NCBI GenBank assembly: GCA_000497405.1
Contig: KI547043.1
Location: forward strand, 132,278 to 177,772
DNA from: Streptomycetaceae bacterium MP113-05
GTDB taxonomy: Bacteria > Actinomycetota > Actinomycetes > Streptomycetales > Streptomycetaceae
Direction of reading: 5' to 3'
DNA length: 45,495 bases
Positions 12,207 through 33,902 of the stretch are shown piece after piece. Numbering within the stretch: the stretch's first letter is position 1; every line of letters begins with the position of its first letter. Under the pieces are notes generated by a model, which saw only the letters and a program-made list of their open reading frames with translations, was not told the DNA's origin and made no database searches. Position numbers and translations under genes: made by a program.

Positions 12207-12295
12207 TCGCCGATCATCCGAACCGCCCCCATCCTTGCCCCGCCCCGGTGCTCGGGGCAGCGCCCGTAGGAGTCGGTTTCACACCCGAAGCCCCG

Positions 12296-12395
12296 GAGAA
12301 AGCCCCACGGTTGCCGCCGCACCCCCCCGTCTGGGCCTCTCGCACCGCAGGTCAGGCTGAGTGCGGCGGCGTCCGTCGTTCAGATGTCGCGGAAG
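12296..12395. repeat. attL: left copy of the island boundary repeat (murA-like 3' end plus terminator)
   Basis: Runs parallel to 33903-33999 over about 100 bp, roughly four-fifths identical by eye. Shared parts: the 10-bp hairpin arms GCCGCCGCAC and GTGCGGCGGC, the loop segment CACCGCAGGTCAGG, and the 12-bp exact core ATGTCGCGGAAG at 12384-12395. Read on the minus strand the core encodes the last residues FRD plus Ile and stop of the murA-like protein (here an ATC Ile codon, versus ATT at the right copy). Interpreted as the chromosomal half of the attachment site, with the original terminator of the murA-like gene. Confidence 0.8.
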
Positions 12396-12698: not shown

Positions 12699-13634
12699 CT
12701 AGGCCGGGGGGAGACCGGGGAGCACCATCCCCGTGTAAGCGGCGAGCACGCTGCCGAGGGCTCCGCTGACGGCAGGAGAGTTGAGGATGCCGATGATGGT
12801 GCCACGCCAGCGCTGGAGTCTCGCCGGGTCGGGCGAACCACCGGCGGCCTCGTCCTCGAGACGCGTGGCGGTCTGGGTGAACTCGAGAGCTTCGTCTTCT
12901 GGCAGTTCCAGGGCAGGCGCGGCCTGTCGCAGGGCACGAGCGAGCATGATCACTGCTGCGGCGTCGATGCCGTCCTTGTTCGTGGTGGCCCTCATGTTGA
13001 AGTCACGGCTGTTCGCAGCAATGTTGCCGGTGTTCTCGCCGATGTGGAACGTTGTGTTCCCGCTGCTGTTGCGACGCTCGTACGCACTGATGTCGCCGTC
13101 GTAGTGCTCCACGCAATCCAGCCCTTCAGACGTGATCTTGGCGCGTACCGGCCCTTCTCGGCTGTCGACCTTGGGGCCCTTGATCATTGCCTTGGAGTCG
13201 AGATACGCAGCGGCTCGGTCTATTTCGGTGATGGTGAGACGGTCGCCTTCGAAGAAGGCGTCATCGGTCTCCAGGATGCCGTCGATGACGGGGAGGTGTG
13301 TGCCGTCGTGCTGGCGGTGCCATAGCCAGACGAGCAAGGCTCTGCGGGCCGCGGCGCTCCGGGCTGCTGGTGATGAGCGACGACGCAGGCGCGCTTCCAT
13401 CGTCTCCAACCCATAGGAGGTCAGCTCCGCACGGGCGTCCCCCATGGTGGACTGGTTGCCGTCCAAAAGCCCTTTGCTCGCACCGTATCGGACCAGTTCG
13501 TAGGCTTGATTGTCCGTCATCCCACGCTCACCGGTGAACGGCAGGACGGAGACGTCGGCCAGCGGGTTGTCCCCGGCTTGCTCGTAGACCCACTCAACAA
13601 GCGGGTCCAGTAGTTTCGCGAACTCAACAGCCAC
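12699..13634 (-). CDS. Hypothetical protein with a C-terminal hydrophobic segment
   Basis: About 311 residues from GTG at 13634, chosen because GAGGGGG lies just upstream; a longer frame reaches 13682. No family recognised. The N-terminal two thirds look like helical or winged-helix-like repeats (DNQAYELVRYGASKGLL; ITEIDRAAAYLDSKAMI). Then comes a Gly/Asn-rich strand segment (TTFHIGENTGNIAANSRDF), a helical stretch, and a hydrophobic C-terminal segment (SPAVSGALGSVLAAYTGMVL) that could insert in a membrane. Sensor modules followed by a membrane-active tail occur in some phage-defence effectors, but that reading is only an inference. It faces away from the pPIWI-RE operon. Confidence 0.65.
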   Translation of the reverse strand: MAVEFAKLLDPLVEWVYEQAGDNPLADVSVLPFTGERGMTDNQAYELVRYGASKGLLDGNQSTMGDARAELTSYGLETMEARLRRRSSPAARSAAARRALLVWLWHRQHDGTHLPVIDGILETDDAFFEGDRLTITEIDRAAAYLDSKAMIKGPKVDSREGPVRAKITSEGLDCVEHYDGDISAYERRNSSGNTTFHIGENTGNIAANSRDFNMRATTNKDGIDAAAVIMLARALRQAAPALELPEDEALEFTQTATRLEDEAAGGSPDPARLQRWRGTIIGILNSPAVSGALGSVLAAYTGMVLPGLPPA

Positions 13635-14214
13635 GGTGGCCCCCTCTCGTGTACGACAGAGGGTATGGGGATCCTCTGACATCGGCCCGGAGTAGTCGGC
13701 CGAAATCGTTCGGAAGGACGTTCGTCGGAGGCAGGCACGTCACGCACGCTGCGCGTGCGGTGCAGCCTGAGGGCCAGTTCCTGCGGAGCCAGACCCAGCT
13801 CGGCATTAGCCTGTTGCGCCTCAAGTGCCTGGCGAACAGGCCGCTCGTCAGTCACTGTCAGCAGTTCCTACCCGATCCGCTGCCACCTTCACCGGCTGGT
13901 TCATGACGACTTTGGAGGTGTGACGACCGGCGACCCATGCCGCGTTCGTCTTGCCGAGCTCCTGCGTGCCGATCGTCCCTTCGCGGCTCGACGTCGTCAG
14001 CCTCTCAAGGCCGCCACCCTGACGTGCAGTCTGTCAAGTCGACACAACGCTACTCACCGGTTCTGGTGAACTTCGGCAGCTCCGGGCGCACCTGTGGGTC
14101 ATCGTTGATGCAGGTCAGCGGCGGTATGCGGCGTGTCGCCGCTCGGTCGGGGAGGCTCAGACTCCTGTCATCATCGTCACAGAACACTCTGTCGTGGTCA
14201 CTTAATGATGTGAG
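13635..14214. other. 580-bp divergent intergenic region upstream of the pPIWI-RE operon
   Basis: Presumably carries the promoters of both the hypothetical gene on the left and the pPIWI-RE operon on the right. A minus-strand frame from 13855 begins with a protein-like stretch (MTDERPVRQALEAQQANAE) but runs into the neighbouring gene in another frame, so at most it is a remnant. The 50 bases before 14215 are noticeably less GC-rich than the surroundings. Confidence 0.4.
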
Positions 14215-15396
14215 ATGGAGAGCCGGATGACGCTGTCGTCTGACGTTTTGCAATATCACAGGCGGGTGCTGACCAGTGCGGCCGTCCGTGCCGGATACGC
14301 GCACACCTGCCGCTTCGAAGTGCCTGCCGCTCGTCGGGAGATTGCCCGGATGACCGGGGTCGTCATGTCCGTGTGCGGCCCGGGCAAGGGGCCGAACACG
14401 CCAACCATGCTGGTCGAGGCGCTGCATCGGCCCCTCGAGCAGGTGGCTCCTGACGTTTTCGCTGGCAGCACCATGGGCTCGTTGACGGTTCTTGACGGTG
14501 ACGAGCTCAGCGACGACGTGTACGCCGAAGGCTGCGAGGACATCGTCGAGTTGCTCAGCGGGGGCGTGGATCCGGCGCGCCTCTGGCTGCCGACGTGGGC
14601 GTGGATGCACGGCGAGCTGGTGGAGCGGGAGGCTTTCCAGCAGATCAACGAGGGGGCTAGCGGCGAGGAGTACACCGCGCACCGCTATTTCGTGGTCAAA
14701 CATCCCGCGGGCGGGGAGCGGAAGCTGGCGGAGCTGTTCAGCCAGGCGGTCGGCATGCGCAAGTCCGTGCGCTACGTTCCGATCCCGGCCGACCAGGTGT
14801 TCCGGGGGAAATTCTGGTGGCCGTGTCCGGTGTGCCAGTGGCCGATGCACATCGACGGATCGGAGGTGCGCTGCCGTTTCCCGCTGCACAACGCGGTGTA
14901 CTTCGTGCGCGCCGATGTCGCGAAGGGGCGTCCACTGCTGCAGCGGCGAGACGGCAGTGTGCCCCGCCAGCCCGCGGCCCACCCCTTCTACCGGGAGGGC
15001 CCGAAGCGGAGCCTGTGCGTGGAGACGGCGGTGTGGCGGCACATCGTGATCTCCGGGGTGTCCGAGATCCACCTCTTCGAGCGGATGGAGGCGCTGGGGG
15101 ACAAGGGTGTCGAGGTCGAACTGTGGCCGGGCATGGACCGCTACGACCTGCTGATCAGGGTGCCCGCGACCGGCTGGGAGATGCGGATCGATGTGAAGGA
15201 CTACGGGAGCGCGGTGTCACTGGCCGACCAGCTGCGTAGGAAACCGCCAGCGGCCCACACCATCGTCATTCCCGAATACCGCGGCGAGGCGCAGTGCGAC
15301 GAACTGGCCGAACTTCTACCGAACCTGACGGTCTTGCTGGTGAGCACGGTCCTCAAGGCCGTCAAGGCCGAGGTGCGCAAGGCCGGTCGCCGATGA
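14215..15396 (+). CDS. pPIWI-RE system REase-like protein (first gene of the three-gene island)
   Basis: Predicted nuclease of a pPIWI-RE defence system, 393 residues. The N-terminal ~190 residues are a domain I cannot assign by motif; in this position known systems carry the pPIWI-RE Y/Z-type domains. A zinc-ribbon-like CPVC ... C ... H cluster follows (C204, C207, C220, H225). The C-terminus looks like a restriction-endonuclease fold: DRYDLLI, then WEMRIDVKDYG with the D-x-K signature (D326, K328), then a strand TIVIPEY. The start at 14215 follows a weak site; ATG at 14227 has GGAG at a spacing of 6 and may be the true start. Its TGA overlaps the helicase ATG (ATGA). Assignment rests on the D-x-K motif plus the two downstream partners. 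Confidence 0.75.
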   Translation: MESRMTLSSDVLQYHRRVLTSAAVRAGYAHTCRFEVPAARREIARMTGVVMSVCGPGKGPNTPTMLVEALHRPLEQVAPDVFAGSTMGSLTVLDGDELSDDVYAEGCEDIVELLSGGVDPARLWLPTWAWMHGELVEREAFQQINEGASGEEYTAHRYFVVKHPAGGERKLAELFSQAVGMRKSVRYVPIPADQVFRGKFWWPCPVCQWPMHIDGSEVRCRFPLHNAVYFVRADVAKGRPLLQRRDGSVPRQPAAHPFYREGPKRSLCVETAVWRHIVISGVSEIHLFERMEALGDKGVEVELWPGMDRYDLLIRVPATGWEMRIDVKDYGSAVSLADQLRRKPPAAHTIVIPEYRGEAQCDELAELLPNLTVLLVSTVLKAVKAEVRKAGRR

Positions 15397-18300
15397 TCAC
15401 GCAGCTGGTGGAGAAGGACAGCGAGCTTGACCGGCGCATTCTGCCGAAAGTCATCGCCTGCGCGTGCGCACTGGCGCAGGCGTACTTTCCCCTGCGGATG
15501 GCAGACGGCAGTGCCGGAACCGACCTTGAGCGTGTGTGCTATCTGCTCACGGGACAGTACGACGCGTGGACGCAGTATCCGCAGCTCTCGGATGAGGAGC
15601 AGCGGAGGATCAGCCGCGTGCTGCGCCAGCGCCCCAACCGGCTGAGCAACCAGGAGTCGCTGACGACGGATGCGGAGCGGTTCCTGGCCACGGGCGCGAT
15701 GTGCGAGTTCGTCCTGCACGGCGAAGGGGCGCTCGCCGCCCGCCACGGAATGCCGCCCCACGAGCTGGCCGACGCGCTGCTGGAGGAGATCGACCGGCTG
15801 CGAGCCGAGAACTCGCGTGCGCTGCCCGACGCCGAGCCCGGCGACTACGTGACCACCTTGCGGGTACCGGTGGCCGGCCACGACTCCACCTGGTCCGTCC
15901 AGGCTCACTACACCCTTCAGGAGCGGCACGCCGCCTCGCAGACCGAGCCCCCTGTTGTGCACACAGCGTCTGCCGCCGGGCAGTTGACCCTGAAGGTGCC
16001 AGAGTTCCTTGCCCTCAACCGGGACCTGGACGAGCAGGCCGGGGAGAGTTTCCGTACCGAGTCCCTCGAGCCGCTCTTTGCACAGTTGCGGACCGGCGAC
16101 GACGCCGAGCTCGGTGACCAGCTGCACGTTCAGGCGGGGAATCTGCACGTGCTGCAAGCGCCGACCGGGTTCGGCAAGAGCGTACTGATGCGCAGCCTCG
16201 GATCCTGGGCCCAGGCTGAGGGGGTGACGCTGGGCCTGGCCGTCCCCACCACGATGGCGGCACTCAAAATGGCCTACGGCATCGAGAAGGATCTGCGCTC
16301 GTGCGGGGTGGAGCATCCCGAGCAGCTGGTCGTGCCGCTGATGTCACCGAACAGCATGATGGCCGCCCTGGACCAAGTGGCCGCAGAGTCCAGGGACCGG
16401 GGCTTCATCAAATGGGCCGAAGAACGCCTTGGGTACGGCTGCGCACTGCCGTCGCTCGCCACCGTCGACGACGAGGTCGACGCGTGGGTACCCGGCCATG
16501 AAGCGTGCATGTCCCTGGTCCCGTACCGACCGGTCGGCACCCCAAATGGAGCACGGGGATCGAAGTCGCGGCGACACGGGGCATGCGCCTGCTCTTTCCG
16601 CGCGGACTGCGGGAAGTTCCGGCTGGTCAGGCAGGCGTGCACCGCACAGATCATCGTCACCACGCACGCAAACTTCTACCAGGGGCATCTGCACATCCCG
16701 GTCCAGGTCGACTCCGGCGCAGTTGTGGAGCGCATGACGGTGGAGGAACTCATTCTGCGGCGTTGCCAGTTCACCGCCCTGGACGAAGTAGACGCCTTTC
16801 AGTCCTTCGTCCTGGGACGCGCCGGGCGAGGACTGACCCTGGCCTGGGGCAACCGTCAGGACCAGCGCCCGCTGCTTCGCTTAGACGGTGAACTAATCCA
16901 GGCATTCGGGCGTGTACGTCCAGCGCTGGATGAGTCCATGCGTAACACGCTGATGCGCACCCGCTGGCTCGCCGAGACGTACACCAGCCACCTCGCGTAC
17001 GGAAACCTCGGCCCCAGTGACCGTAACGACACCAAGAAGAAGGGCGTCCGTGGTTCGAAGAGGTCTGGGCGCCCGGCGCAGGAGCGGCGGTGGATCATCC
17101 CGCAGCGCTGGGACGGGTGGATCAGCACCCAACTGCGGGCCCTGATCGCTAACGACCCGGAGCAGGTGAACGGCCAGGAGCGCGGCTATTCTCCCGATCC
17201 GACGGAGCGTGGTCTGTTCGCCGCCCTGTACGAGCGGAAGATCAAGATGCCGACGCTGCCCGAGCATCTGCATCCGTTCGCCGAGCTGATGCGCGATGTC
17301 ATTGACCCGGATGCGGACGCCGGATCCCTTTCCCATGTGCGCAAGCAACTGGAGCAGCTGCTGGCCTCGTGGGTGCCCAACCAGCAGGTCCGCGCGGACG
17401 TGTCGGACCGGATGCTGCGCCGGGCCTTCCTCGAACCGCTGCGGCTGCTGCTGTACCGCTTCGTCCACAACGCGGCGCATCTCAAGCTGGCCGGCGTGGA
17501 CAGCGCCCGAGACATCGCCGATGTTCTAGGGCCCTTCAGCGCCTGGCGGGCCATCCCGCACGGTCCGCAGGGCCGGTTGATGTTCGCGTTCACCGAGGAC
17601 GTCAGGTCCGGAGTGCCGGAGGACACCCGCTTGAGTGTGGCGGCCTTCGGTGGTGACCCGCACAGCTATGTCACCACTCTCGGGCAGATCACCGCTCTGG
17701 CCCACAGCGGCCACAAGCGCGTCGTGCTCGGCCTCTCCGCCACCGCCTATGCGCCCGGAGCCCACCGCCACCACATTCACACCGTCCCCACCTGGTGGGT
17801 GCCCGACGACGTCGATCACGGAGTGAGTATCGAAGCCGAACTCTTCCCCGGGCTCGGTGAAGAGATGCTGCGTGTCTCCGGTATCACGGGCAAGGACCGC
17901 ATCGAGGCGACCCGATTGCTGGGCCGGCGCATGTGGGCCCGACTGCGCGGCGAGCTCAAGGACCTCACACGGGTGAGCAAGCACCGGGTCCAAGACTCCA
18001 TCCTGCTGGTGACCACCTCCTACGACAGCTGCCAGCATCTGCGTGACGGTCTGCTGGCCGCCGGCGCGGAGCCCGGGCTCATCGCGGTCGCTGTGCGCCC
18101 CCGGCCTGATGATGAACCCGCTGCCCGCTACGACGAGTCGGGCGAGCCCCTGTGGCATGAGATCCCGGGTGACCAGCTGGAATCGTTCACCCGGCTGCCC
18201 AAGGCCCGGATCCTAATCGCACCGCTCGGCCGGGCCGAGCGCGGCCTGAACATCCTCGCCCCGCAGTCCAACAAGTCCGCGATCGGCTCCATCTGGCTCG

Positions 18301-18758
18301 CCGTCCGCCCCGTGCCGCTGGTCGACGAACCCGACGAACTCCTCGCCCACGTCGGTGCCCGAGCCCTGGACGAGAAGGACATCAGCAGCGAGCCCTGGAC
18401 GGAACTCGAGCGACGCCGGACCGTGGCTGGCCACTACTTCGAGCAACTGGTCACCAGCGAACGCTACTTCCGCTCCCTGCCGCTCCGCGCCAAGAGGGCC
18501 ATCGCCGCCGAGCTCATCATCAGCCTCATCCAACTCGTCGGCCGCGCCCGCCGCGGCGGCACACCAGGCCGCATCAAACTCGTCGACGCAGCCTTCCTCG
18601 ACACGAGCGGCAACTCCGACCTGCCCCACCTCATCCGCGAGCTACGCGAGCAGTGGACTACGAGTGGCGAACTGCCCCGCATGCACCGCTACTACGGCAC
18701 CACCCTCAACGCCTTCTTCCACTTCGCCGACCGGCACGCTCGAAAGGCCACCCGATGA
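15393..18758 (+). CDS. pPIWI-RE system DinG/XPD-type helicase with Fe-S cysteines
   Basis: Superfamily 2 helicase of about 1,121 residues, predicted to unwind DNA or DNA-RNA duplexes for the pPIWI-RE protein. Seen in order: Walker A APTGFGKS (256-263); a four-cysteine cluster (C398, C400, C406, C416) followed by TAQIIVTTHANFY, the arrangement of the DinG/XPD iron-sulfur domain; a DEVD box (464-467, DEAH-like motif II); GLSAT (780-784); and motif VI QLVGRARRG (from 1047). Start: ATG at 15393 inside the stop of the preceding gene; the longer frame from 15294 is a shadow. Its own TGA overlaps the pPIWI start the same way, so the three products are probably made in matched amounts. The N-terminal ~240 residues are unassigned. 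Confidence 0.88.
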   Translation: MITQLVEKDSELDRRILPKVIACACALAQAYFPLRMADGSAGTDLERVCYLLTGQYDAWTQYPQLSDEEQRRISRVLRQRPNRLSNQESLTTDAERFLATGAMCEFVLHGEGALAARHGMPPHELADALLEEIDRLRAENSRALPDAEPGDYVTTLRVPVAGHDSTWSVQAHYTLQERHAASQTEPPVVHTASAAGQLTLKVPEFLALNRDLDEQAGESFRTESLEPLFAQLRTGDDAELGDQLHVQAGNLHVLQAPTGFGKSVLMRSLGSWAQAEGVTLGLAVPTTMAALKMAYGIEKDLRSCGVEHPEQLVVPLMSPNSMMAALDQVAAESRDRGFIKWAEERLGYGCALPSLATVDDEVDAWVPGHEACMSLVPYRPVGTPNGARGSKSRRHGACACSFRADCGKFRLVRQACTAQIIVTTHANFYQGHLHIPVQVDSGAVVERMTVEELILRRCQFTALDEVDAFQSFVLGRAGRGLTLAWGNRQDQRPLLRLDGELIQAFGRVRPALDESMRNTLMRTRWLAETYTSHLAYGNLGPSDRNDTKKKGVRGSKRSGRPAQERRWIIPQRWDGWISTQLRALIANDPEQVNGQERGYSPDPTERGLFAALYERKIKMPTLPEHLHPFAELMRDVIDPDADAGSLSHVRKQLEQLLASWVPNQQVRADVSDRMLRRAFLEPLRLLLYRFVHNAAHLKLAGVDSARDIADVLGPFSAWRAIPHGPQGRLMFAFTEDVRSGVPEDTRLSVAAFGGDPHSYVTTLGQITALAHSGHKRVVLGLSATAYAPGAHRHHIHTVPTWWVPDDVDHGVSIEAELFPGLGEEMLRVSGITGKDRIEATRLLGRRMWARLRGELKDLTRVSKHRVQDSILLVTTSYDSCQHLRDGLLAAGAEPGLIAVAVRPRPDDEPAARYDESGEPLWHEIPGDQLESFTRLPKARILIAPLGRAERGLNILAPQSNKSAIGSIWLAVRPVPLVDEPDELLAHVGARALDEKDISSEPWTELERRRTVAGHYFEQLVTSERYFRSLPLRAKRAIAAELIISLIQLVGRARRGGTPGRIKLVDAAFLDTSGNSDLPHLIRELREQWTTSGELPRMHRYYGTTLNAFFHFADRHARKATR

Positions 18759-21331
18759 TCAGCACCCTGGCCTTCCTGTTCCCGTACGCCGGGCTCGGGA
18801 AGATTACGCTCTACCCCCTGAACAGCGAGTTCGGCCAGGCATGGAGCTGCCTTCCCAGCTACGGCGACGCCAAGAACGGCAAGCCGCGCCGCCCTCCGTA
18901 CGCCGGACTGGCCTCCGCGCTCAGCGCGGTCTCGGGCCAGCCCGTCGTCCTCATGCCACACACGTATGAACCCGTCGATGACGAATTCGCCCAGCCCGCC
19001 GTCGCCGTCACCACCAAGCCCCTCGACGCCTGGACGCTGTCCACCGCGGTCCGTGAATGGGAGCGGTGCGTCCGAAAGGGCGAGGACGCCAACACCCTCG
19101 CCCCGCTGCTGGCCGCCGCCGATGTCGAACAACCCGACCTGGCCCACTTCGTCAGGGGAGTCGAGGAGGGCACCCCGCACGCACCGGGCTGGTTCTACCG
19201 CGTCGCGGCCTGGAACTTCGCCCAGCGCCTCGCCCGCACCCCGATGCCCGTCCCCGACGGGTCGCGGGTGCGCCGCATCCGCTGGCGCATGGACACCCAA
19301 GGCAGCCTCATCAGCTGGGACAACGTCACCAAGCGGACCACACTGAAACCCAAACGCACCGGATATGCCCTGCACAAGCTGGACTTCAGAGTGGTCACTC
19401 AGCCCGGCGAGCCGCTGTTCGCGCTCCATGTGCTGCCCACCTTCAGCCGCCTGGCCACCCACTGGGCCAGCACCCGCACCGCCTTCATCGAACATGGCAC
19501 CAACAAGGACACCCTGTTGCGGATGCCGATCGGGCACACCAAGAACAGCGACGGCCAATGGGTGCCCTACGCCCGCAACTACGCCTCAGAAGTCCTCGAA
19601 GCTTGCGGCATGGACTTCACCGCCTGGCCCACCAACGACGAACTCGCCACACTCCAGGGACAGATGCGTGCCCTGGTCCCGGCACCCGTGCCGCACGTCC
19701 TCGGCAAAGGCGTCGGCACCCGCTTCAACAAGATCCTCGCCGACCACATCAACGCGACCATCAGACGCCCCAAGATTACCCAAGTCGGCTTCGAGCCCAC
19801 CGGAAGCGAGCTCACCCGTCCCACCAAAGGCGCCGTCACCCGCGCCGAGCTCGACCACGCGCTGGCCGCCACCGGCAGCGACACCGTCCGCATCATCGCC
19901 CTGTTCAACGACGGCACCACTCGCAAGAGGATGACCGAGACCCTCGCCGCCTACACGAACACCCCCGACAAACCGCTCGACTGCGGCGACCACGAGGACC
20001 ACCGCCTGAGCGAACGGCTCATCGTGCGCTTCCACCGCCTGCGGGCCCTCGACCGGGTCGAGAAGGTCGACTGGGACGACGAACTCACCTTCCTCGACCA
20101 ACTCGAGGACGACACACTCAACGCCGCTTGGGTCGAGACGATCTGGAACCCCAAACCCACCAAACGCGAGCGCGAGGCGGGCCAGCACCGCCACGACCAC
20201 AAACGCGACCTGCGCCGCGCCCTGTACGAGCGCGGCATCGTCTCCCAGTTCCTGGCCCGCCAGAGCGCACCCGAACCCCATGACGACGCAGAAGCGGAAG
20301 CCAGCGCTGAAGCACCCAGGGACTACAAGGCAATCAACGCTCTGCGTGACCTGTTGTTCCGGGTCGGCTGCGTGGACGACCGCCTGCGCGAGGTCACCGA
20401 TCTCGCCGACGAGCCCATCCTGGTCGGCATCCACCTGCGCCAGCAGCGGATCAGCAACCGCCGCCCCGGCGCCGCCGACCGTACGCAGATGGTTGAAGTC
20501 CTCACCGCACTACACACCAGCAACGACCCCGGTCGCCCCTGGCACATGGACTCCTACGACCAAAGTAGCCACGACTGGCGGCCCCAGGCGGCGGCCGAAG
20601 CAGCCTTCGGCCGACATGCGATCGGCCGTGAGGGCCACGCCCGGCACGAAGAGGGCGCCCTACTGGCCCGCCAGCACATCGAATCGGCCCTGAAACTCAT
20701 CCCCTCCGACCGGCCGCTGATCCTCTTCGTGGACACGGAAGCCTGCCGCACCATCTGGCCGGGCCTGCAAAACGTGCGCTTCGGCACCGGGCCGCTGCCG
20801 GGCGACGACCTGCGCACCCCCACCCGGTCCGTCGCGGTGGTCGCCATCAACACCTCCTACGGCGAAGTACCAACCCCAGTGGAGAACGCCGCCAGTCGCC
20901 GCAAGAACCCCAAGCGTCCGCCCAAGCCCCAGAACCGCCTCTACGAGCGCACCACCAGCACCGGTCACACCAGCTGGTACATCGCCCAGGCATCGCGCAC
21001 CTATGACGGCTTCGGCAACGCGGGCAGCATCGGCGGCGTCCACACCCGCTTCACCCTCCCCGCAGACGAGTGGGCCCTGCAGCGCAAGGACTGGCACAGC
21101 TTCACCGCCACCCAGATCACCGTCCCGCACGCAGGGGACAAAGATCCCCAGCAACTCGCCGCCGTTGCAGCCCAGTTGTGTCACCAGTCCCTGGCCTGGG
21201 ACGCGCGCACCCGCCACCCCGTGCCGCTCCATGTCGCCGGTGCCATGGACCGCGCCCATCCCGAATACCGCGGTCCCAGCATCGAACCGGTCAGTACGCC
21301 GGAAGTCGACGAAACGCAGGACAGCGTGTAG
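18755..21331 (+). CDS. pPIWI-RE protein (prokaryotic PIWI with the R/E motif)
   Basis: About 858 residues, start ATG at 18755 overlapping the helicase stop. Predicted Argonaute-like protein of the pPIWI-RE family: an N-terminal X-type module (roughly 1-300), a MID-like region (about 320-560) and a C-terminal RNase H-fold PIWI domain (about 560-858). The region FVDTEACRTIWPGL (658 onward; E662, R665, W668) fits the family's conserved E..R..W motif, and the segment IGGVHTRFTLPADEW near 750-770 fits the C-terminal PIWI part. Domain borders are approximate. I cannot assign catalytic acids with confidence. The gene order REase-like / DinG helicase / pPIWI-RE is the signature of this proposed RNA- or DNA-guided defence system. 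Confidence 0.85.
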   Translation: MISTLAFLFPYAGLGKITLYPLNSEFGQAWSCLPSYGDAKNGKPRRPPYAGLASALSAVSGQPVVLMPHTYEPVDDEFAQPAVAVTTKPLDAWTLSTAVREWERCVRKGEDANTLAPLLAAADVEQPDLAHFVRGVEEGTPHAPGWFYRVAAWNFAQRLARTPMPVPDGSRVRRIRWRMDTQGSLISWDNVTKRTTLKPKRTGYALHKLDFRVVTQPGEPLFALHVLPTFSRLATHWASTRTAFIEHGTNKDTLLRMPIGHTKNSDGQWVPYARNYASEVLEACGMDFTAWPTNDELATLQGQMRALVPAPVPHVLGKGVGTRFNKILADHINATIRRPKITQVGFEPTGSELTRPTKGAVTRAELDHALAATGSDTVRIIALFNDGTTRKRMTETLAAYTNTPDKPLDCGDHEDHRLSERLIVRFHRLRALDRVEKVDWDDELTFLDQLEDDTLNAAWVETIWNPKPTKREREAGQHRHDHKRDLRRALYERGIVSQFLARQSAPEPHDDAEAEASAEAPRDYKAINALRDLLFRVGCVDDRLREVTDLADEPILVGIHLRQQRISNRRPGAADRTQMVEVLTALHTSNDPGRPWHMDSYDQSSHDWRPQAAAEAAFGRHAIGREGHARHEEGALLARQHIESALKLIPSDRPLILFVDTEACRTIWPGLQNVRFGTGPLPGDDLRTPTRSVAVVAINTSYGEVPTPVENAASRRKNPKRPPKPQNRLYERTTSTGHTSWYIAQASRTYDGFGNAGSIGGVHTRFTLPADEWALQRKDWHSFTATQITVPHAGDKDPQQLAAVAAQLCHQSLAWDARTRHPVPLHVAGAMDRAHPEYRGPSIEPVSTPEVDETQDSV

Positions 21332-21729: not shown

Positions 21730-22059
21730 TCAGCGGTCTTGGTGCGTGCACCAGTTCTGTTCGCGGGCCACATCCTGTAGGTGGGAGGCATCGGACGCCA
21801 GAGCTGAGCGCTCGGCTGCTGCGACGGCTGCGAAGACCCATTCGATGGGGTAGTCGAACGGTGCGTCAAGGATGGAAGTGAGAGCTTCGGGGGCCTCGAT
21901 GAAAACGTCGCTGCGCACAAGGAGCGGCTCCCTGAGGGACCCTTGGCAATGCGGGCCGTAAGCTCTCAGTCCCTCCATCAGCCGCGACGTGAGGCCGTGT
22001 GGCGTCCGTGCGGACAGGGCGCGCAAGGCTGGCCAGGCAGAACCGCCGTAGCGAGCCAT
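21730..22059 (-). CDS. Small hypothetical protein
   Basis: 109 residues from ATG at 22059, the C-terminal part of a much longer minus-strand open frame whose upstream portion is antisense to the toxin gene and not believed. The stretch SDVFIEAPEALTSILDAPFDYPIEWVFAAVAAAERSALASDASHLQDVA has normal protein character, with two helices. No family recognised and no strong ribosome site, so existence is only moderately supported. It is divergent from the polymorphic toxin gene. Confidence 0.4.
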   Translation of the reverse strand: MARYGGSAWPALRALSARTPHGLTSRLMEGLRAYGPHCQGSLREPLLVRSDVFIEAPEALTSILDAPFDYPIEWVFAAVAAAERSALASDASHLQDVAREQNWCTHQDR

Positions 22060-22173
22060 GTCGATCAGCGGGCTGTGGCGCCCAACGCAGGTAGACGACT
22101 CGTAGGTGGAGAGTTGGCCCGGAGACCGTGGGTGAAACAATGGCGTTTGCTGCGGGAGAAGGGGACGGGGCGG

Positions 22174-23730
22174 ATGCGTGTTCATGCGGTGGATCTGATC
22201 AATGCTTCGTGGGGGATGCACAGCCTGAACGAGTGGTACACCGAAGTGGTCCATGCGCTGGCCCGCGAGCTCGATGAGCAGGCGGGGATGGCGGGGGATG
22301 ACGAGGCGGGTCGCGCGTTCGCCACGATGTACGACTCCGCCGGGCGCACCACGGTGAACCAGATGGGCGAGGCGACGTACATCGTCGGGCGGGGCAGCGA
22401 GGGGCTCCTGGAGAACGCCAACAACTACATGGCGACCGAGAGTCAGATCGCTGCCGACATGCTGGATGCCCTGGGCCAGTCTGGGGCCGCTCCGTCGCCA
22501 GGGGGTGCCGGCCAGAGGTGTTCGCCGGCTCCTCTTGGCCGTGGCGACTACTTGCCGGACCTCATCGGTGAGACCAGCTTTGTCACGCAGTACCTGGTTG
22601 GCGACCGCTTCCGCGGCTCGCCCGAGCAGCTCCGGGACGTCGCTGCGACGTGGCGCAAGGCCCGCGGGGTAGCGCTGCAGATCTTCTACGACGCTCAGGA
22701 CTGCTGGCGGCGCGCCACGCGGAACGGCGAGGGAGAGACGGCTGACGCCATCGACAACTTCTTCACCAAGTTCGTCGGCCGCGCCGGGCCGCCCAGCGAG
22801 GTGTCCGGCCAGGACACACTGCTCGCGAACCTGCCCACCGCGTGCCAGCAGATCGCGACCGCCTGCGAGCACTACGCGGACCACATCGTGACAGCCAGCG
22901 AACGCTCCTGGGGGGACACCCTCAGCGACGCGTTCTTGAAGGCAGGCGGCGAATCCCTCTGGGACACCCCCGTTTTCGGCGGCAACGGCGAAGACGGAGG
23001 ACTGCACGAGGCCATAGCCGACGACGGCAAGATCCTCAACCTGGCTAGCCTCGGCCACCACTTGGACTCCTCCCAGAAGCGCGTCCCGGTCCCGCAGCCG
23101 AAGGACAAGTGGTGGGTCCCGGACGGCCCTCTGATACCGCCGCTCGTGCCACTTCCCGTGCCGCGCATCCCGCGCCTTGTGCCCATGGGGTACACCCCGC
23201 CCGACTCCAGCCTGTACCGTCCGGCGATGCCTCCGCCCTCGCCGCCGGACCCGCGCTTCCCACCGCTGACGCCTATGCAGCGGAACAGCTTCGACCGGTG
23301 GGCCGGCAGCCTGCGTGACGGCGGATTCTCCGGCGGCACGAAAGCCGAGCGGGACTACCAAAGGCGCACCGCCGGCTACCCGGAGAAGGAGGTGCCCATC
23401 GACCCCCGGAAGTCAGCACGGGGCACCTTGATGGTGGACGGCCTGCGGCACACCGACGGCATGGCCGTCGAAGCCAAATTCGTCAAGAAGCCCGGGTGCA
23501 CCTTCCGCAACCTGGACGACCTGCAGAGCCCCTCCAACTTCCAGGAGAAGGTCTTGCACAAGAAGGACGAGCAGGAGCTGTTCAAGTACAAGTCGGCCAT
23601 CGAATACCCGGGCAACGCCGACCGGCTGCGCGGCGTGGAAGTGGCCACGAACGACCCCGACGCGGTCCCCTACTGGAACGCTCTGCTCGTAGCCCACGAA
23701 GTCCCCGGCTACGGCCGCTACGCCCCGTAA
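22174..23730 (+). CDS. Polymorphic toxin: WXG100-like N-terminus with restriction-endonuclease-fold C-terminal toxin domain
   Basis: About 518 residues from ATG at 22174 (site GGAGAAGGGGACGGGG upstream). The N-terminal ~110 residues are helical with a WYTEV / AGDDEAGRAFATMY pattern like ESX/WXG100-type export domains of Streptomyces polymorphic toxins. A second helical domain runs to about 280, then a proline-rich linker (about 310-370). The last ~150 residues resemble the Tox-REase family: D428, then the catalytic-type E-x-K in VEAKF (E433, K435) and an EQELFKY helix. Predicted to be secreted and to cut nucleic acid in competitor cells. The immunity gene follows 19 bases downstream. The export route is inferred; no secretion gene is nearby. 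Confidence 0.75.
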   Translation: MRVHAVDLINASWGMHSLNEWYTEVVHALARELDEQAGMAGDDEAGRAFATMYDSAGRTTVNQMGEATYIVGRGSEGLLENANNYMATESQIAADMLDALGQSGAAPSPGGAGQRCSPAPLGRGDYLPDLIGETSFVTQYLVGDRFRGSPEQLRDVAATWRKARGVALQIFYDAQDCWRRATRNGEGETADAIDNFFTKFVGRAGPPSEVSGQDTLLANLPTACQQIATACEHYADHIVTASERSWGDTLSDAFLKAGGESLWDTPVFGGNGEDGGLHEAIADDGKILNLASLGHHLDSSQKRVPVPQPKDKWWVPDGPLIPPLVPLPVPRIPRLVPMGYTPPDSSLYRPAMPPPSPPDPRFPPLTPMQRNSFDRWAGSLRDGGFSGGTKAERDYQRRTAGYPEKEVPIDPRKSARGTLMVDGLRHTDGMAVEAKFVKKPGCTFRNLDDLQSPSNFQEKVLHKKDEQELFKYKSAIEYPGNADRLRGVEVATNDPDAVPYWNALLVAHEVPGYGRYAP

Positions 23731-24378: not shown

Positions 24379-25902
24379 CTAGGCGCGTGGGGGAGGCAGG
24401 TCGTAGCGGCTGACGGCCAGGTACGTTTCTGGCGTGGCCGCTTCGAGGAGACCCTCGTCGCCCTCCAGGTCGAGCTTCGGCTCCTGGGGACGGCGCAGCA
24501 GGTCGCTCCAGTCGCTCGTCGTTCCCCGCTCGTAGGCGTCGCGGAGCAGGGGGCGCAGCCGTGGGCGGGCTTCCTCCTGCTGTTCGCGGAAGATCCGTCG
24601 CTGGGTGAGCCGTTGAACTTCCTGGGCTTCGTCGCTGAGCCCCTGCTCGAGGGCTGGCTGATCCTCGGCGCGCAGTCCCAGGGTGCGCCGGGCGATGGCC
24701 AGATCTTCTTCGTGGAGGCGTGCGCAGGTGGCGAACAACTTTCTGGACATGCCGAGGTGGACCTCGGTTCCAGGGATGCGGCAGGTGAGGAAGTCGTCGA
24801 GCCCCCAGGAGCGGATCTGCTCGCGCAGGGTGTGCGACTCGATGTGGAGGGCCGCTCCGCGTGCGTCCGCCCGCATGGCGAGGGTGATGTCGTCGTTTTC
24901 CAATGGGGTGGTCAGCCCGGAACGCCGGCGGCGGGAAGCGCGGTCGGCCAGCACCGGCACCGTGTGCAATTGAGAGGCAGGAGCGGAGCGCAGCGCAAGG
25001 TAAGCGAGCATCTGGGCACGGGCCGCGCCTATGAGCGCGTCGTCGCTGTCCCCGAGGTGGTCTTCGAGGTTGCCGGGGCAGACCGCTACGTCGTCAGCGC
25101 CGGATCCTGCCGGGGGAAGGGGTGGCTCGCCGGAGTGCAGGTCATGGTCGATCGTGAGGAAGAGGTCGTCTCCGGGCCGCACGGACGCCCCGACTAGGAC
25201 AATGCGGTGCATGTAGGAGCCGAGGATCTTGCTGCCGGCCTTCAGTTGTGCCCACCCTTTGCGGAGGGTGCCGACGCCGACATTGCCGCCCTTGGCCTCG
25301 ATCAGCCAGTACATCTCTTCTGCCTCGTGCCGTCCCCACAGGTCGGGCAAGGTCCTCTTCGGGTCCTTGAACGTGCCGCTCAGGGCGGGGATGGGGCCGC
25401 CGAGTTCGAGGTGGTGGGTCTGTCCGAGGCCCAACAGGGAGCGGCAGGCCCACTCGGTCATCGTCATGCCCAGCCGGTAGGCGGCTGCGTTCTGCGCAGT
25501 GCGCTCGGTGCCGTGCTCGTACACCGGGTTCAGGGTCAGGCGCTGGCCCTTTGCGCCCGGTACGGGGTGCCGGGGCGTGACAGGGTGGGCGCCAAGGTAG
25601 GCATACAGCGGGGAGACCCGGGCGACGAGTTCTCCGTGCGCGTACCGGGGCTGGTTCTGCAGGTGCGGGGCAACGTCGCGGCCGACCTCGGTGGCGGCTT
25701 TGATGATCTCCCGCCACGTGGTGGTCGGGGCGTACCAGCCGTCGGTTGCCGGGAACCCGTCCGACTCGCTCCACGCCTCGTGCTCCGCCGTGCGCCACTG
25801 CCTCTTGGGCTTGTTCGCGGGTCCGTTACGGAACAGGACCGGTACGTCGAAGCTGTCGGCGTAGGTGAGCGGCGGCTCGTCGGGGATGTGTGCGGGGATC
25901 AT
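24379..25902 (-). CDS. Uncharacterised PD-(D/E)XK-like nuclease
   Basis: About 507 residues from ATG at 25902 (a GTG three codons earlier is possible). The middle of the protein carries LPDLWGR followed by MYWLIEAKGGNVG: D187, then E202-A-K204, the PD-(D/E)XK signature of restriction-type nucleases, followed by a helix ending GWAQLKAGSKIL. The N-terminal ~170 residues and the C-terminal ~250 residues, which are Arg/Glu-rich helices (QRRIFREQQEEARPRLRP), are unassigned. No methylase or helicase partner lies beside it, so it is not a simple restriction-modification system. Its place in the island suggests a solitary defence or element-maintenance nuclease; that is inference. Confidence 0.65.
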   Translation of the reverse strand: MIPAHIPDEPPLTYADSFDVPVLFRNGPANKPKRQWRTAEHEAWSESDGFPATDGWYAPTTTWREIIKAATEVGRDVAPHLQNQPRYAHGELVARVSPLYAYLGAHPVTPRHPVPGAKGQRLTLNPVYEHGTERTAQNAAAYRLGMTMTEWACRSLLGLGQTHHLELGGPIPALSGTFKDPKRTLPDLWGRHEAEEMYWLIEAKGGNVGVGTLRKGWAQLKAGSKILGSYMHRIVLVGASVRPGDDLFLTIDHDLHSGEPPLPPAGSGADDVAVCPGNLEDHLGDSDDALIGAARAQMLAYLALRSAPASQLHTVPVLADRASRRRRSGLTTPLENDDITLAMRADARGAALHIESHTLREQIRSWGLDDFLTCRIPGTEVHLGMSRKLFATCARLHEEDLAIARRTLGLRAEDQPALEQGLSDEAQEVQRLTQRRIFREQQEEARPRLRPLLRDAYERGTTSDWSDLLRRPQEPKLDLEGDEGLLEAATPETYLAVSRYDLPPPRA

Positions 25903-26054
25903 GAGAATCACTCTGGCACGGGTCTGGACCCTTCCGGACGCCCGGCAGTGGGCCGCCGATCTGCTTGACTCCCGTCGTCATGGCGCAGGCGCGGCCATGT
26001 CTGATGGCGACCGCGTGTTGTTGGCCTGCTACCCGCCTCCTCGCGTTCTACTGC

Positions 26055-29344: not shown

Positions 29345-30519
29345 TAGTGTCTCGTGATCCTGTTTATGTCAGTTCGCGTTGTTATTGACGAGTTTCTTCG
29401 CGTTAGTCGCGACGAGGCGAACCTTTGCGAGGACGTCGCCGGCGGTCGCGGTCCAGGTGAACGGTTTCGCAGTCGTGTTCCAGGTGTTGATGTAGTCACG
29501 GATCTGTTTGATCAAGACGTTGACGCTGGCGAACGTTCCGCGCCGGATGGACTGACGGGTCAGGAGTCCGAACCAGATCTCGATCTGGTTCAGCCACGAG
29601 GAGCCGACGGGGGTGAAGTGGAAGTGGACGTGTGGGTTCTTCGCCAGCCACTCCTTGACTTCGGGGGTGGTGTGCGTCGAGAGGTTGTCGAGGACAACAT
29701 GGATGTCCTTCCCCGCGTGCGGTTTCACCGCCTTCTTGAGGAAGGCCAGGAAGTCCTTGCCGTTCCGGGACGGCTTGCACTCACCGAGCACTTCACCGGT
29801 GGTCACGTTCAGGGCGGCGAACAGGTTCGTGGTGCCGTGCCGCACGTAGTCGGCGGTGCGCTTCTCGCTCGCCCCGAAGGCGACCGGCAGCACCGGCTGG
29901 GTCCGGTCCAGCGCCTGGATCTGCGTCTTCTCGTCGATCGAGAGGACCACCGCGCCACCCGGCGGGTCCAGATACAGGCCGATCACATCAGTCACCTTCT
30001 CCGCGAAGGCCGGATCCTTCGAAATCTTGAAGGTGCCGGACCGGTGCGGCTTCAGACCCTCCTCCCGCCAGATCCGCGCGATGTAGTGCCAGGACACCGT
30101 GATGTTCTCGACCCGCTTCAGGTACTTCGCCAACTCGCGTGTGGACCAGTGCGAAAGCCCCGTGCCGTCCGGCGGCGTCATGCGCGTCAGCGCGATCACC
30201 CGGGCCCGCACCCGCGCCGGCACCTGTTCCCGTGCGCCGCCGGGCCGGTCGCCTTCCAGGCCCGCCAGTCCGAGCTCGGCATAACGCCGCTTCCAGCGGT
30301 CCACCGTCGGAAGCGATACACCAAGCAGCTCGGCAATGTCCTTACGCCGACGGCCTTCGCCCGACCACAGCACGATCCGGCCCCGCGTCGCCATGTCGGC
30401 GGGTGCGTCCCGGCTGTTCACCAACTCCCGCAACTCGGCGGTCTGTTCCACGGAGAGCTCCACACCAAGAGACCCTGCCACAGAGAATCAAATAACGCTA
30501 ACGGAATCACGCGACACTA
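29345..30519 (-). mobile_element. IS630-family insertion sequence
   Basis: Both ends carry related terminal inverted repeats, TAGTGTCTCGTGATCCTGTT at the left and TAGTGTCGCGTGATTCCGTT read inward from the right, each starting with the TA target dinucleotide that this family duplicates (29345-29346 and 30518-30519). It encloses one transposase gene and truncates the HAD gene. Confidence 0.85.
29369..30481 (-). CDS. IS630-family transposase
   Basis: 370 residues. N-terminal helix-turn-helix (GRRRKDIAELLGVSLPTVDRWKRRY), then the DDE catalytic domain: first Asp in VVLSIDEKTQIQALDR, second Asp in HVVLDNLSTHTTPEV, Glu in SWLNQIEIWFGLLTR. Full length with no frame disruption, so the element may be active. 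It lies 24 bases inside the left end of the IS. Confidence 0.92.
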   Translation of the reverse strand: MAGSLGVELSVEQTAELRELVNSRDAPADMATRGRIVLWSGEGRRRKDIAELLGVSLPTVDRWKRRYAELGLAGLEGDRPGGAREQVPARVRARVIALTRMTPPDGTGLSHWSTRELAKYLKRVENITVSWHYIARIWREEGLKPHRSGTFKISKDPAFAEKVTDVIGLYLDPPGGAVVLSIDEKTQIQALDRTQPVLPVAFGASEKRTADYVRHGTTNLFAALNVTTGEVLGECKPSRNGKDFLAFLKKAVKPHAGKDIHVVLDNLSTHTTPEVKEWLAKNPHVHFHFTPVGSSWLNQIEIWFGLLTRQSIRRGTFASVNVLIKQIRDYINTWNTTAKPFTWTATAGDVLAKVRLVATNAKKLVNNNAN

Positions 30520-30985: not shown

Positions 30986-32332
30986 AGGGCTTGATCAAGT
31001 TCCGGAGACGTGGCGCTGGTCTGGTGGTGACCGGTTGGGGTGCATAGCAGTGCAGGCACGGGATCCGTGATCATTGGGGTGTCGAATCTCAACGATCATG
31101 AGGTGGCCCGTGCCTGCCGCTGTATCTTCTCCCATCCCGCCGGTGTTGGTGAGGCTGGGTCCGCTGGACATCGGTCAAGTCGCTGACCTGCGGACGTTCC
31201 TGGACCAGGTGCCCGACCCGCGTGCGAGGCGGGGCCGCTGGTACTCGCTGACCGCGATCCTCCTCGTCTGTGCCTGCGCGGCCGTCTCGGGAGCGAGGAC
31301 CGTCGACGAGATCGCCGAGTGGACGGCGCGGGCCTCGGAGACCGTGCTGATGGCCGTCGGCGTCCGACGGCATCCGCTGCAGTGGCGCCGTGCCCCTTCG
31401 CGGACCACGATCGGCCGTGTGCTGGCGGCCGTCGACGGTGACGCCCTGGACAAGGCGATCGGCGCCTACCTCGCCGGCCGGAACGCCGCGGGACCGGAGC
31501 CGGAGCAACGGCGGGTGATCGCCGTCGACGGCAAGTCGCTGAGGGGATCGGCCCGCCTGACCGCCGGCCGCAGGCACCTGCTCTCCGCCGTCACCCACCA
31601 CCGGGCCCTGACCCTCGCCCAGGCCGAGGTCGGAGCGAAGACGAACGAGACCGCGCACTTCCGGCCCCTGCTCGAAGGGCTGGACCTGGACGGAGCTCTC
31701 GTCACCTTCGACGCCCTGCACTCGGTCCAGGCGAACGTCACCTGGCTGGTCGAGACCAAGAACGCCCACTACATCGCCGTGATCAAGCGCAATCAGCCGA
31801 CCGCCCACCGGCAGCTCGCCGCCCTGCCCTGGTCCGACGTCCCCGTCCAGCACACCACATCCTCCACCGGACACGGCCGCCACGAATCCCGCTCCATCAA
31901 GACCTGCGGCATCGCCGACGAACTCGGCGGAATCGCCTTCCCCCACGCCCACCTCGCCCTCCGCGTCCACCGCCGTCGCCTGCAGACCGGCCGACGCGAG
32001 AGTCGTGAGACGGTCTACGCCGTCACCAGCCTCGACGCCCACCAGACCACCCCCGCCGAACTGGCCGCCGCCGTCCGCGGCCACTGGAGCATCGAAGCCC
32101 TGCACCACGTCAGAGACGTGACTTATACCGAGGACGCCTCAACCGTCCACACCGGCACCGCACCCCGCGCCATGGCCACCCTCCGCAACCTCGCCATCGG
32201 CCTGCTCAAAACCCTCGGAGCCGCCAACATCGCCAAGACCACCCGCGCAATCCGCGACCAGCCCGAACGAGCCCTCCCACTCCTGGGCATCCTCAACAAC
32301 CCCGACCCTCACGGAACTTGATCAAGCCCCTG
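30986..32332 (+). mobile_element. ISAs1-family insertion sequence with 10-bp target duplication
   Basis: Ends share an inverted repeat containing GGGCTTGATCAAGTTCCG at the left and its exact complement at the right (one extra G near the right tip). Direct repeat CTCTCACCCC flanks it at 30976-30985 and 32333-32342. One base of ambiguity remains in placing the tips. Carries one intact transposase gene. Confidence 0.88.
31098..32321 (+). CDS. ISAs1-family transposase
   Basis: About 407 residues from ATG at 31098. N-terminal [21 protein letters not shown] is the usual ISAs1 start region. DDE residues: [12 protein letters not shown] (first Asp), [12 protein letters not shown] (second Asp), and [20 protein letters not shown] (Glu). 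Uninterrupted, so possibly functional. It ends 11 bases before the right tip of the IS. Confidence 0.92.
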
Positions 32333-32593: not shown

Positions 32594-33838
32594 CTGGCCG
32601 GCTACATAGAAGACCGATGGCTGAAGAAGCGCCCCAGCCCGAAGACCGGCAAGCGCGAACGCACTGCCATGTACGGCAAATGCACCCGATACCGCGTCAA
32701 GGGCATCCCTGGCGTCAAAGATCGTTCTTTCGACACCCTTCAGGACGCCAAGACCTGGCTCGCTCAAGCCCAGACAGATGCGCGTCGAGGCGAGTTCATC
32801 GATCCGCGCGACGGTGCCGTCTCTCTCAAGGAGTACATCGAGGGGCACTGGTGGCCCACCCAGAGCGGAGACCCCTCCACTCTCGAGAGGAAGGAACAAC
32901 AGGTGCGTCGCCACATTCTTCCGCATCTCGGTGCTCAGCCGCTGAACGGCGTGGGTACGGAGACGCTCCGCGGGTGGAAGAAGCGCCTGGAAAATGACCT
33001 TGGTCCGACCTCGATCCGCCTTGTCTGGGCGACCCTGTCCAGCATCCTTCAGGCCGCCGTCGAGGACCGCCGACTCGCACGCAATCCGTGCCGCTCCAGC
33101 ACGGTCGGTCCGCCCGCTGCCGCACCCGGCAGGGTCGAGGCTTGGTCGCCCGAGCGTCTGCTGGCCGTCCGCGCAGCCATGCCGGAACGCTATCGGCTCT
33201 TGGTAGAGGTCGGAGCTGGCCTGGGCTTGCGGCAAGGGGAGGCGCTCGGGCTGAGCCTGGAGGACATTGACTTCGAGAAGAAGGTTGTCCATGTGCGGCG
33301 CCAGATCAAGATGGTGCGGACGAAGCTGTGCTTCGCTCTTCCCAAGGGGCGGAAGGTTCGAGATGTGCCGCTGCCTTACAGCGTGGCCGGCGCCATCCAG
33401 CGGCACATGGAGCAGTTCGCTCCGGTGCCGGTCACGCTGCCCTGGGACGACCCGCGTCCTCCTGCGACGCCCGTAGAGGCCAAACATCGGCGGCCGAGGA
33501 CGTACAGCCTCCTGGTGGCCGGGCGCGAGCGGACAGCGGTTAACCGCAACTACTTCAACTCCTACGTCTGGAAGCCAGCCCTGGCCCAGGCAGGGGTGAT
33601 TGCTCCGTTGGAGGAGACCGCGGGTGGACCCCGCGTGTGGGAGCCCTCGAGGGAGCACGGCTTCCACGCTCTGCGTCACTTCTACGCGTCCGAGGAATTG
33701 GAGGCAGGTGAATCGGTCGTGTCGCTGGCGCGCTGGCTGGGACACTCCGACCCGGGCTTCACGTTGCGGAAGTACTCCCACTTCCTGCCCCGCGCGGGTG
33801 CACGGGGGAGCGCCGCGATCGACGCGATCTTCGAGTAG
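32594..33838 (+). CDS. int: Tyrosine-family site-specific integrase; likely CTG start
   Basis: Integrates and excises the island. Catalytic set visible: R213 (LRQGEAL), H358 and R361 (HALRH), H384 (LGHSDP) and Y394 (KYSHF), numbered from 32594. The arm- and core-binding parts contain GVKDRSFDTLQDAKTWLAQA and SLKEYIEGHWW. The first ATG (32669) would drop the normal N-terminus. The frame extends upstream as LAGYIEDRWLKKRPSPKTGK, where relatives normally begin MAGYIEDRW. The codon there is CTG, with a perfect AAGGAG six bases before it. So translation probably starts at CTG 32594, giving 414 residues. It lies 65 bases from the right boundary repeat. Confidence 0.88.
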   Translation: MAGYIEDRWLKKRPSPKTGKRERTAMYGKCTRYRVKGIPGVKDRSFDTLQDAKTWLAQAQTDARRGEFIDPRDGAVSLKEYIEGHWWPTQSGDPSTLERKEQQVRRHILPHLGAQPLNGVGTETLRGWKKRLENDLGPTSIRLVWATLSSILQAAVEDRRLARNPCRSSTVGPPAAAPGRVEAWSPERLLAVRAAMPERYRLLVEVGAGLGLRQGEALGLSLEDIDFEKKVVHVRRQIKMVRTKLCFALPKGRKVRDVPLPYSVAGAIQRHMEQFAPVPVTLPWDDPRPPATPVEAKHRRPRTYSLLVAGRERTAVNRNYFNSYVWKPALAQAGVIAPLEETAGGPRVWEPSREHGFHALRHFYASEELEAGESVVSLARWLGHSDPGFTLRKYSHFLPRAGARGSAAIDAIFE

Positions 33839-33902
33839 GTCCGCCGGACGGCGTAGGACCCGGGCGGCGACCCGTAGGAGCCCACCTCACGTCCAAAGTC
33901 CC

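Follow-up and report, generated by a model that had tools for sequence, protein, structure and literature searches.

Can an Argonaute operon act against invading DNA when its Argonaute-like subunit has lost part of its cutting site, and which of its proteins would then do the cutting? The question is raised by three genes at 14215-21331 (+) of a 45,495-nucleotide stretch of Streptomycetaceae bacterium MP113-05 (GCA_000497405.1, contig KI547043.1, positions 132,278 to 177,772), the whole of which we call the window. Their open reading frames (ORFs) of 393, 1121 and 858 codons encode a restriction-endonuclease-like protein (REase), a DinG-type helicase and a PIWI protein, the components of the pPIWI-RE system. 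Because the PIWI protein lacks part of its cutting site and the residues that gave the family its name, the helicase and the nuclease are probably the subunits that destroy invading DNA. In the function that we infer for the operon, and to which we give an even chance, an Argonaute that is guided but does not cut would bring in a helicase and a nuclease, encoded by separate genes, to attack invading DNA, probably plasmids.

An earlier note, made from the letters of the window alone, had proposed a complete three-gene pPIWI-RE operon joined by two ATGA overlaps. Both overlaps were located: the REase stop codon (15394-15396) and the helicase ATG (15393) overlap by 4 nt, as do the helicase stop codon (18756-18758) and the PIWI ATG (18755). 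All three frames are open and stand in the strict order REase, helicase, PIWI that is expected of the three-gene system. Pfam models exceeded their curated cut-offs on the first ORF (PF18154 pPIWI_RE_REase, 1.6e-20; PF18156 Y, 9.2e-9) and on the third (PF13032 RNaseH_pPIWI_RE, 3.2e-65; PF13111 X, 3.0e-29; PF18157 MID, 6.9e-8), and the PADLOC model PprDinG covers residues 21-1112 of the helicase (2e-106). No Pfam family passed its cut-off on the helicase, and no NCBIfam model did so on any of the three proteins. The search against the Pfam pPIWI_RE models, suggested in the earlier note, therefore succeeded for X, MID, RNaseH, Y and REase and failed for Z: this domain is expected at the helicase N-terminus, where Pfam reported no Z family at E<=1, although the full-length PprDinG profile matches. 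Pfam domains, PprDinG and the Argonaute-like PIWI model agree on the identification, and neither of the outcomes named as fatal to it, a missing match to PIWI models or a fold without an RNase H-like domain, was observed.

The operon is therefore of a catalogued kind, with a description from 2013 and with Pfam and PADLOC models. That the system had been defined mainly by comparative genomics needs amending in one respect, since biochemistry of one related PIWI protein exists (PMC10991935). Three variant traits lift the operon above routine annotation without making it a new kind: the loss of the RE pair, an incomplete RNase H site next to an intact REase, and a weak DdmD-like match. Comparison of the window operon with three relatives gave dN/dS values of 0.11-0.16 per gene; each of the three is under purifying selection, and the operon has thus been maintained.

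The PIWI protein was modelled with AlphaFold2 from 18 sequences (predicted local distance difference test, pLDDT, 81.6; predicted TM-score 0.85). The 50 Foldseek matches listed are Argonaute or PIWI entries, except one titled 'protein-DNA complex'; the best has E 1.2e-14, probability 1.00 and a TM-score of about 0.4. In a second comparison the T. thermophilus Argonaute gave the best Z, 18.8, with a root-mean-square deviation of 5.0 over 518 residues across model positions 1-840. The protein is predicted to be Argonaute-like over residues 1-840, and the E..R..W motif that the earlier note had read in this large PIWI-like protein is E662..R665..W668. A profile of the protein run against Protein Data Bank (PDB) sequences up to E 1 gave no match.

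The first-strand catalytic Asp of the RNase H domain is replaced by H560 (GIHLR), which leaves the cutting site incomplete; the DEDX active site of Argonautes, which calls for this Asp, is not present in the window protein. Not one of 77 aligned rows has Asp at position 560 (H 44, W 25, Y 4, T 2, L 1, K 1, D 0), while position 660 (FVDTE in the window protein) is Asp in 43/77. Incomplete catalytic sites in many pPIWI-RE members have been published before (PMC3702460, PMC10991935).

The second loss concerns the Arg and the Glu, described as absolutely conserved in a beta-sheet extension, for which the family is named (Burroughs et al. 2013, PMC3702460). In PsPIWI-RE they are numbered R639 and E718, after D525 and D610 (PMC10991935). 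They were assigned to window columns 697 and 787 by conservation and by spacing to the PsPIWI-RE numbers, not from a published alignment. The window protein has A697 and Q787 at these columns and so lacks the pair by which membership is recognised. Both residues are kept in 51/77 rows and both are lost in 15/77, the window included (with A, S, T or C for R and Q or H for E); 6 of the remaining rows have only R changed (to L), 4 keep R with E changed, and 1, the very long fusion L151, is misaligned and was left out of the tree. The rows for L130, L137 and L088 cover part of the protein, and several of the 77 are closely related to one another. The 15 proteins without the pair form one clade in a midpoint-rooted FastTree tree (local support 1.0). 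With the pair absent, family assignment rests on profiles and operon, and by its sequence the window protein belongs to a clade, inside the profile-defined family, that lacks the pair. Single PsPIWI-RE mutants of R or E retain activity (PMC10991935), and joint loss of both would be the pattern expected of a dispensable salt-bridge pair. Since neither the first catalytic Asp nor the name-giving pair is present, the PIWI protein is probably a sensor rather than a cutter. In its MID domain E461, D481 and K483 are invariant in 46/46 sequences and Q498 is kept in 45/46; by analogy these four are candidates for a guide 5'-end pocket.

The REase, in contrast to the PIWI protein, has an intact site. 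Its layout comprises a helical Y domain (the N-terminal part is predicted helical), a zinc ribbon CxxC...C...H (204, 207, 220, 225) and a core D308/D311...D326-V-K328. The D-x-K nuclease with a zinc-ribbon-like cluster that had been read from the letters is borne out by these residues and by their conservation: C204, C207 and C220 are kept in 44/44 sequences, and D308, D311, D326, K328, C204, C207, C220 and H225 are invariant in 18/18 operons around the window clade. Translation probably starts at ATG 14227 (389 aa) rather than at 14215; this ATG stands 4 nt after GGAGAG at 14217-14222, and the annotated REase beside a PIWI relative of 87% identity has the same length of 389 aa.

The predicted REase model (pLDDT 84.5) found no Foldseek match at E<=0.001, and its top three matches are DdmD (best 9bgk, E 4.3e-3, probability 0.89). 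Among the 50 VIA matches listed, 12 are DdmD, with Z 4.8-5.9 and 164-188 residues aligned inside model positions 126-389, whereas for 33 of the 38 others the alignment spans 75-110 residues, and none of the 38 exceeds 153. As these Z values are low and the PDB holds many DdmD entries, the likeness is a lead. The REase profile, run against PDB sequences up to E 10, gave only two chance-level matches.

The helicase, a DinG type by its sequence with a Cys-rich putative Fe-S region, looks equally intact. The Walker A, the four Fe-S-type cysteines, DEVD and QLVGRARR pointed out earlier are all present, and G261, K262, Cys 350/372/400/406, D464, E465, D467, Q1047, G1050, R1051 and R1054 are invariant in 45/45 sequences; G259 is kept in 39/45. 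Sequences that were too short (L089 for the PIWI protein, L052 and one L082 piece for the helicase) are dropped from the conservation counts.

The three genes travel together. In 42/47 regions around PIWI or REase matches, a set that excludes short PIWI pieces from the genus sample, REase, helicase and PIWI follow in order (the L082 helicase as two ORFs). In the other five the contig ends before PIWI (L048), the REase was not found and the helicase is partial (L052, L088), only PIWI is present (L058) or PIWI is a fragment (L089). A helicase gene lies beside PIWI in 45/47 regions, two of them partial. Across 79 operons the REase-helicase overlap is 4 nt in 45/79 and 8 nt in 23/79, by a count that takes the nearest in-frame start and is biased towards overlaps. 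Upstream of the window operon lies a conserved cis element, likely an operator or promoter-proximal site; it takes in the ribosome-binding site GGAGAG and, at 14198-14213, the imperfect palindrome TCACTTAATGATGTGA. No second copy was found in the genome at <=3 mismatches; a regulon is thus not suggested.

One group of operons bears directly on the question of which subunit cuts. Among 44 REases, six have lost D...DxK (L071, L074, L075, L077, L078, L080); their operons form one clade and are the same six in which the PIWI R is changed to L. All six carry a PprPDDEXK gene upstream, with E-x-K seen in 5 of the six (the L080 copy is a 248-aa ORF). PprPDDEXK, a name that rests on a PADLOC match of one copy and Pfam PDDEXK_1 matches of two, was found in the flank examined of 29/73 operons and in 0/14 of the window clade; E-x-K is kept in 23/24 of the longer copies, the exception being a truncated ORF. 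The pattern suggests that the system never does without a nuclease of some kind, each clade counting as a single event. PprPDDEXK as a new fourth gene was rejected, since it is already a PADLOC model.

The distribution is patchy. PF13032 occurs in 45/150 genomes of the genus, in 0/14 control genomes and in 6/396 of a phylum sample, five of these in this genus; the REase family was found in 6/296. Relatives of the window PIWI protein occur in 25/293 order-level genomes (three of them, not counting the window itself, at 80-87% identity), at 20 loci in a pattern-based scan of species genomes, and in 17/72,556 plasmid records, all Streptomyces. Divergent PIWI queries reach plasmids of Nostoc, Calothrix, Tolypothrix, Microchaete and Azospirillum. 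A search of 50,697 phage records and a pattern-based scan of viral contigs gave no pPIWI-RE relative.

In the window the operon is carried on a 21.6-kb mobile element. Its insertion site is the 3' end of the murA-like gene at 33984-35513, which encodes a helix-turn-helix and an EPSP-synthase-type domain. Table 1 lists the features. The element is bounded by a direct repeat whose copies, 21.6 kb apart, are 77% identical over 142 columns; the left copy does not run into a murA-like gene as the right one does. With an integrase, direct repeats and a WXG100-like/Tox-REase-2 neighbour, the mobile island beside conflict genes that the earlier note had described is indeed there. Of ten relatives, three have sequence from the integrase side of the element at this end of murA, which implies that several streptomycetes reuse the site; none of the ten relatives has a clean empty site, and in the stretch examined the left flank never follows the murA-like gene. 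The operon is also mobile as a unit: a relative with differing flanks matches 14027-21331 at 85%, and two more relatives have nearly identical limits of the matching block. Further cargo includes a 2'-5' RNA ligase-like gene.

Table 1. Coordinates of the operon, its cis element and the mobile element in the window
Feature	Position	Strand	Remarks
Left end repeat	12255..12395	.	identical 12-bp core ATGTCGCGGAAG at 12384-12395
Divergent 327-aa gene, cargo	12699..13682	-	zero Pfam/PADLOC matches at limits used
Conserved cis element	14192..14223	+	31/32 columns invariant in 7 sequences
REase	14215..15396	+	Y domain, zinc ribbon, PD-(D/E)XK core
DinG-type SF2 helicase, 1121 aa	15393..18758	+	GFGKS, Cys 350/372/400/406, DEVD, SAT, QLVGRARR
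pPIWI-RE protein, 858 aa	18755..21331	+	X, MID, RNase H-like domains; H560, D660 kept, A697, Q787
Polymorphic-toxin-like gene, cargo	21943..23730	+	Tox-REase-2 1.6e-28; WXG100-like below cut-off
510-aa gene	24379..25911	-	homologues flank pPIWI-RE operons at L085, L121
DDE transposase (DDE_3)	29369..30481	-	
DDE transposase (DDE_Tnp_1)	31074..32321	+	
Tyrosine integrase, right end of element	32669..33838	+	Phage_integrase 1.8e-12
Right end repeat	33862..33999	.	runs into 3' end of murA-like gene 33984-35513 (-)

Some observations on neighbouring genes and other loci stand by themselves. The 510-aa gene of the element, which has no assigned family, carries a WLIEAKGG motif, lies beside 3 of 73 operons (the window and the distant loci L085 and L121) and could be an accessory nuclease. 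At L151 (5413-15183) the pPIWI-RE protein of an Azospirillum oryzae plasmid is annotated as a single gene of 9771 bp; about 2300 of its residues lie beyond the PIWI match and include an AAA_22 match, and a WYL-domain gene is divergent upstream of this fusion. A Streptomyces plasmid operon is followed by two overlapping or abutting genes after PIWI (L155, 9606-11359), the second an Mrr-type restriction endonuclease and the first of a family seen beside 10/73 operons. The 3'-terminal piece of the PIWI gene occurs alone in L104, L105, L106, L107, L111 and L112; tblastn at 1e-4 over seven regions with short PIWI pieces found a piece in L111 and L112 and none in L110, L113, L114, L115 and L116. In L100 (Streptomyces sp. 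MP131-18) the PIWI 3' end is present a second time, as a 153-bp copy (15465-15617) that extends as far as the stop codon and lies 3.6 kb downstream from the intact operon; the ORFs beside it, read without a family search, we take to be integrase, Rep and FtsK-like. Upstream of the same operon (119-3932) lie what are presumably dnd-type phosphorothioation genes (DndB-like, DndA-like and an associated methyltransferase). No piece holding only the PIWI N-terminus was seen among the match rows of the order genomes; mid-gene pieces occur on S. anthocyanicus plasmids.

In the mechanism that we favour, the PIWI protein would hold a short guide by its MID pocket, with E461, D481, K483 and Q498 as the candidate contacts, and the guide-bound protein would pair with invading DNA. 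It would then recruit the helicase, which would unwind and translocate, and the REase would cut during unwinding; the outcome would be the elimination of plasmid-like or conjugating DNA. An RNA guide against a DNA target may be favoured, by analogy with the one assayed relative. A bolder extension appears possible to us, though doubtful: pPIWI-RE operons as a whole might be a split anti-plasmid machine of the DdmDE/ApsAB type, in which the REase shares descent with the nuclease arm of DdmD, the DinG helicase is the motor, the cleavage-incompetent PIWI protein with its rewired pocket (R and E lost in the clade) is the guided sensor, and PprPDDEXK replaces a dead REase arm.

Several results weigh against these proposals. 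The DdmD likeness of the REase model is weak and at fold level, with every VIA Z below 8; its fourth Foldseek match is an unrelated translation-factor entry (Pelota/EF1-alpha), with Hjc, MunI and HindIII lower, and the highest VIA Z (7.5, 95 residues) belongs to Upx, a different protein. The best PDB match of the helicase profile is DdmD at a non-significant E of 0.17, and the PADLOC matches after PprDinG are typeIV_DinG (16 of 17 members), DpdF and HamB, with DdmD not listed. DdmE is not among the 50 matches listed for the PIWI model, which is not evidence of different folds. K483 or Q498 is altered in several non-actinobacterial rows of the 77-row alignment, and direct-repeat, tandem-repeat and Rfam searches of the element found no guide array, tandem array or Rfam RNA. 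The six degenerate REases imply that cutting by this subunit is not universal. The assayed PsPIWI-RE, finally, has both catalytic Asp residues and cuts alone, and the phenotype reported for its knock-out is ciprofloxacin sensitivity, not defence (PMC10991935).

Guided recruitment also has to be set against quite different roles. In the R-loop restriction proposed by Burroughs et al. (2013, PMC3702460), a guide-free PIWI protein senses DNA-RNA hybrids on a transcribed or replicating invader, DinG resolves them and the REase cuts; this sits well with a DinG-type helicase whose four Cys are intact and with the preference of PsPIWI-RE for DNA/RNA hybrids. Yet the invariance of MID E461, D481 and K483 in 46 sequences fits a held guide strand, and 5'-anchored guides were also expected by the 2013 authors (PMC3702460). 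We consider this scenario unlikely, and no less unlikely an abortive defence in which the REase, once a target is recognised, would degrade DNA indiscriminately and so kill or arrest the cell. An Argonaute without a full cutting site does share an operon with a nuclease here, and a long-B Argonaute-nuclease system acts in that way (PMC10620215), but the near-constant neighbourhood of helicase and PIWI suggests on-target unwinding, and for ApsAB, which joins helicase and nuclease, its authors reported having no evidence of killing (PMC11096173).

A role in replication or repair, for the host or the mobile element, is less probable again. It would agree with P. stutzeri, where survival of the knock-out under ciprofloxacin was about 15-fold below wild type (PMC10991935); it agrees poorly with a system present in 45/150 genomes of the genus and 6/396 of the phylum sample and carried on plasmids and an island. 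That the operon is a decaying passenger of the island without present function is highly improbable: operon remnants do exist in several relatives and the PIWI protein has lost catalytic and name-giving residues, but the three frames are open, dN/dS is 0.11-0.16, and the residue losses are common to a 15-member clade.

Although the prediction of a three-gene pPIWI-RE system dates from 2013, the literature searched showed almost no wet-lab work on it (one related PIWI protein assayed), and the window offers an intact, compact operon in a genus with tractable strains. Its incomplete RNase H site beside an intact REase and helicase, together with the degenerate-REase clade, makes clean predictions on which subunit cuts. 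Should plasmids be removed, pPIWI-RE would be tied to DdmDE and ApsAB, which would explain operons on rival plasmids and islands.

With the published pPIWI-RE system (PMC3702460; PADLOC Ppr) the operon shares gene order, overlapping genes, domains (Y, zinc ribbon and REase; X, MID and RNase H) and patchy spread on mobile DNA. It departs from the typical system by A697 and Q787 in place of R and E and by a Z domain that Pfam did not report, and from some operons in that no PprPDDEXK gene was found in its flank. PsPIWI-RE of Pseudomonas stutzeri belongs to the same PIWI family, keeps D525, D610, R639 and E718 and cleaves, in an assay of 2022 that described RNA-guided DNA cleavage with DNA/RNA hybrids favoured (PMC10991935); the window protein, by contrast, has His in place of the first Asp and has lost both R and E. 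The closer parallel to the proposed division of labour, a non-cutting Argonaute sensor with a helicase and a nuclease, would be DdmDE and ApsAB. DdmDE (V. cholerae, L. casei) likewise combines a non-cutting Argonaute with an SF2 helicase and a PD-(D/E)XK nuclease; the Argonaute is catalytically inactive and the helicase-nuclease moves 5' to 3' (PMC12409362). Helicase and nuclease are fused as DdmD there and separate genes here, the window helicase has four conserved Cys, and the Argonaute subunit is pPIWI-RE, not DdmE. A 120-aa query piece found no DdmD relatives on plasmids, and the literature searched held no published comparison of pPIWI-RE with DdmDE, though both names co-occur in one paper. 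The long-B Argonaute with nuclease, BPAN, also joins a nuclease to a long Argonaute that is catalytically inactive, but it belongs to a different Argonaute clade and has an abortive outcome, and its abstract names no helicase (PMC10620215). ApsA of ApsAB (E. coli ST38) carries GFGKS, DELH, SAT, QAVGRVER and D...DVK, to be compared with GFGKS, DEVD, SAT, QLVGRARR and D...DVK here (PMC11096173). ApsA is a fusion, and ApsB is said to be without typical PIWI and PAZ domains, whereas the window operon has a PIWI domain (PMC11096173). Together with its Argonaute-like partner ApsA removes plasmids and was inactive against eight phages (PMC11096173). The closest functional analogues that we can name, DdmDE and ApsAB, both act on plasmids.

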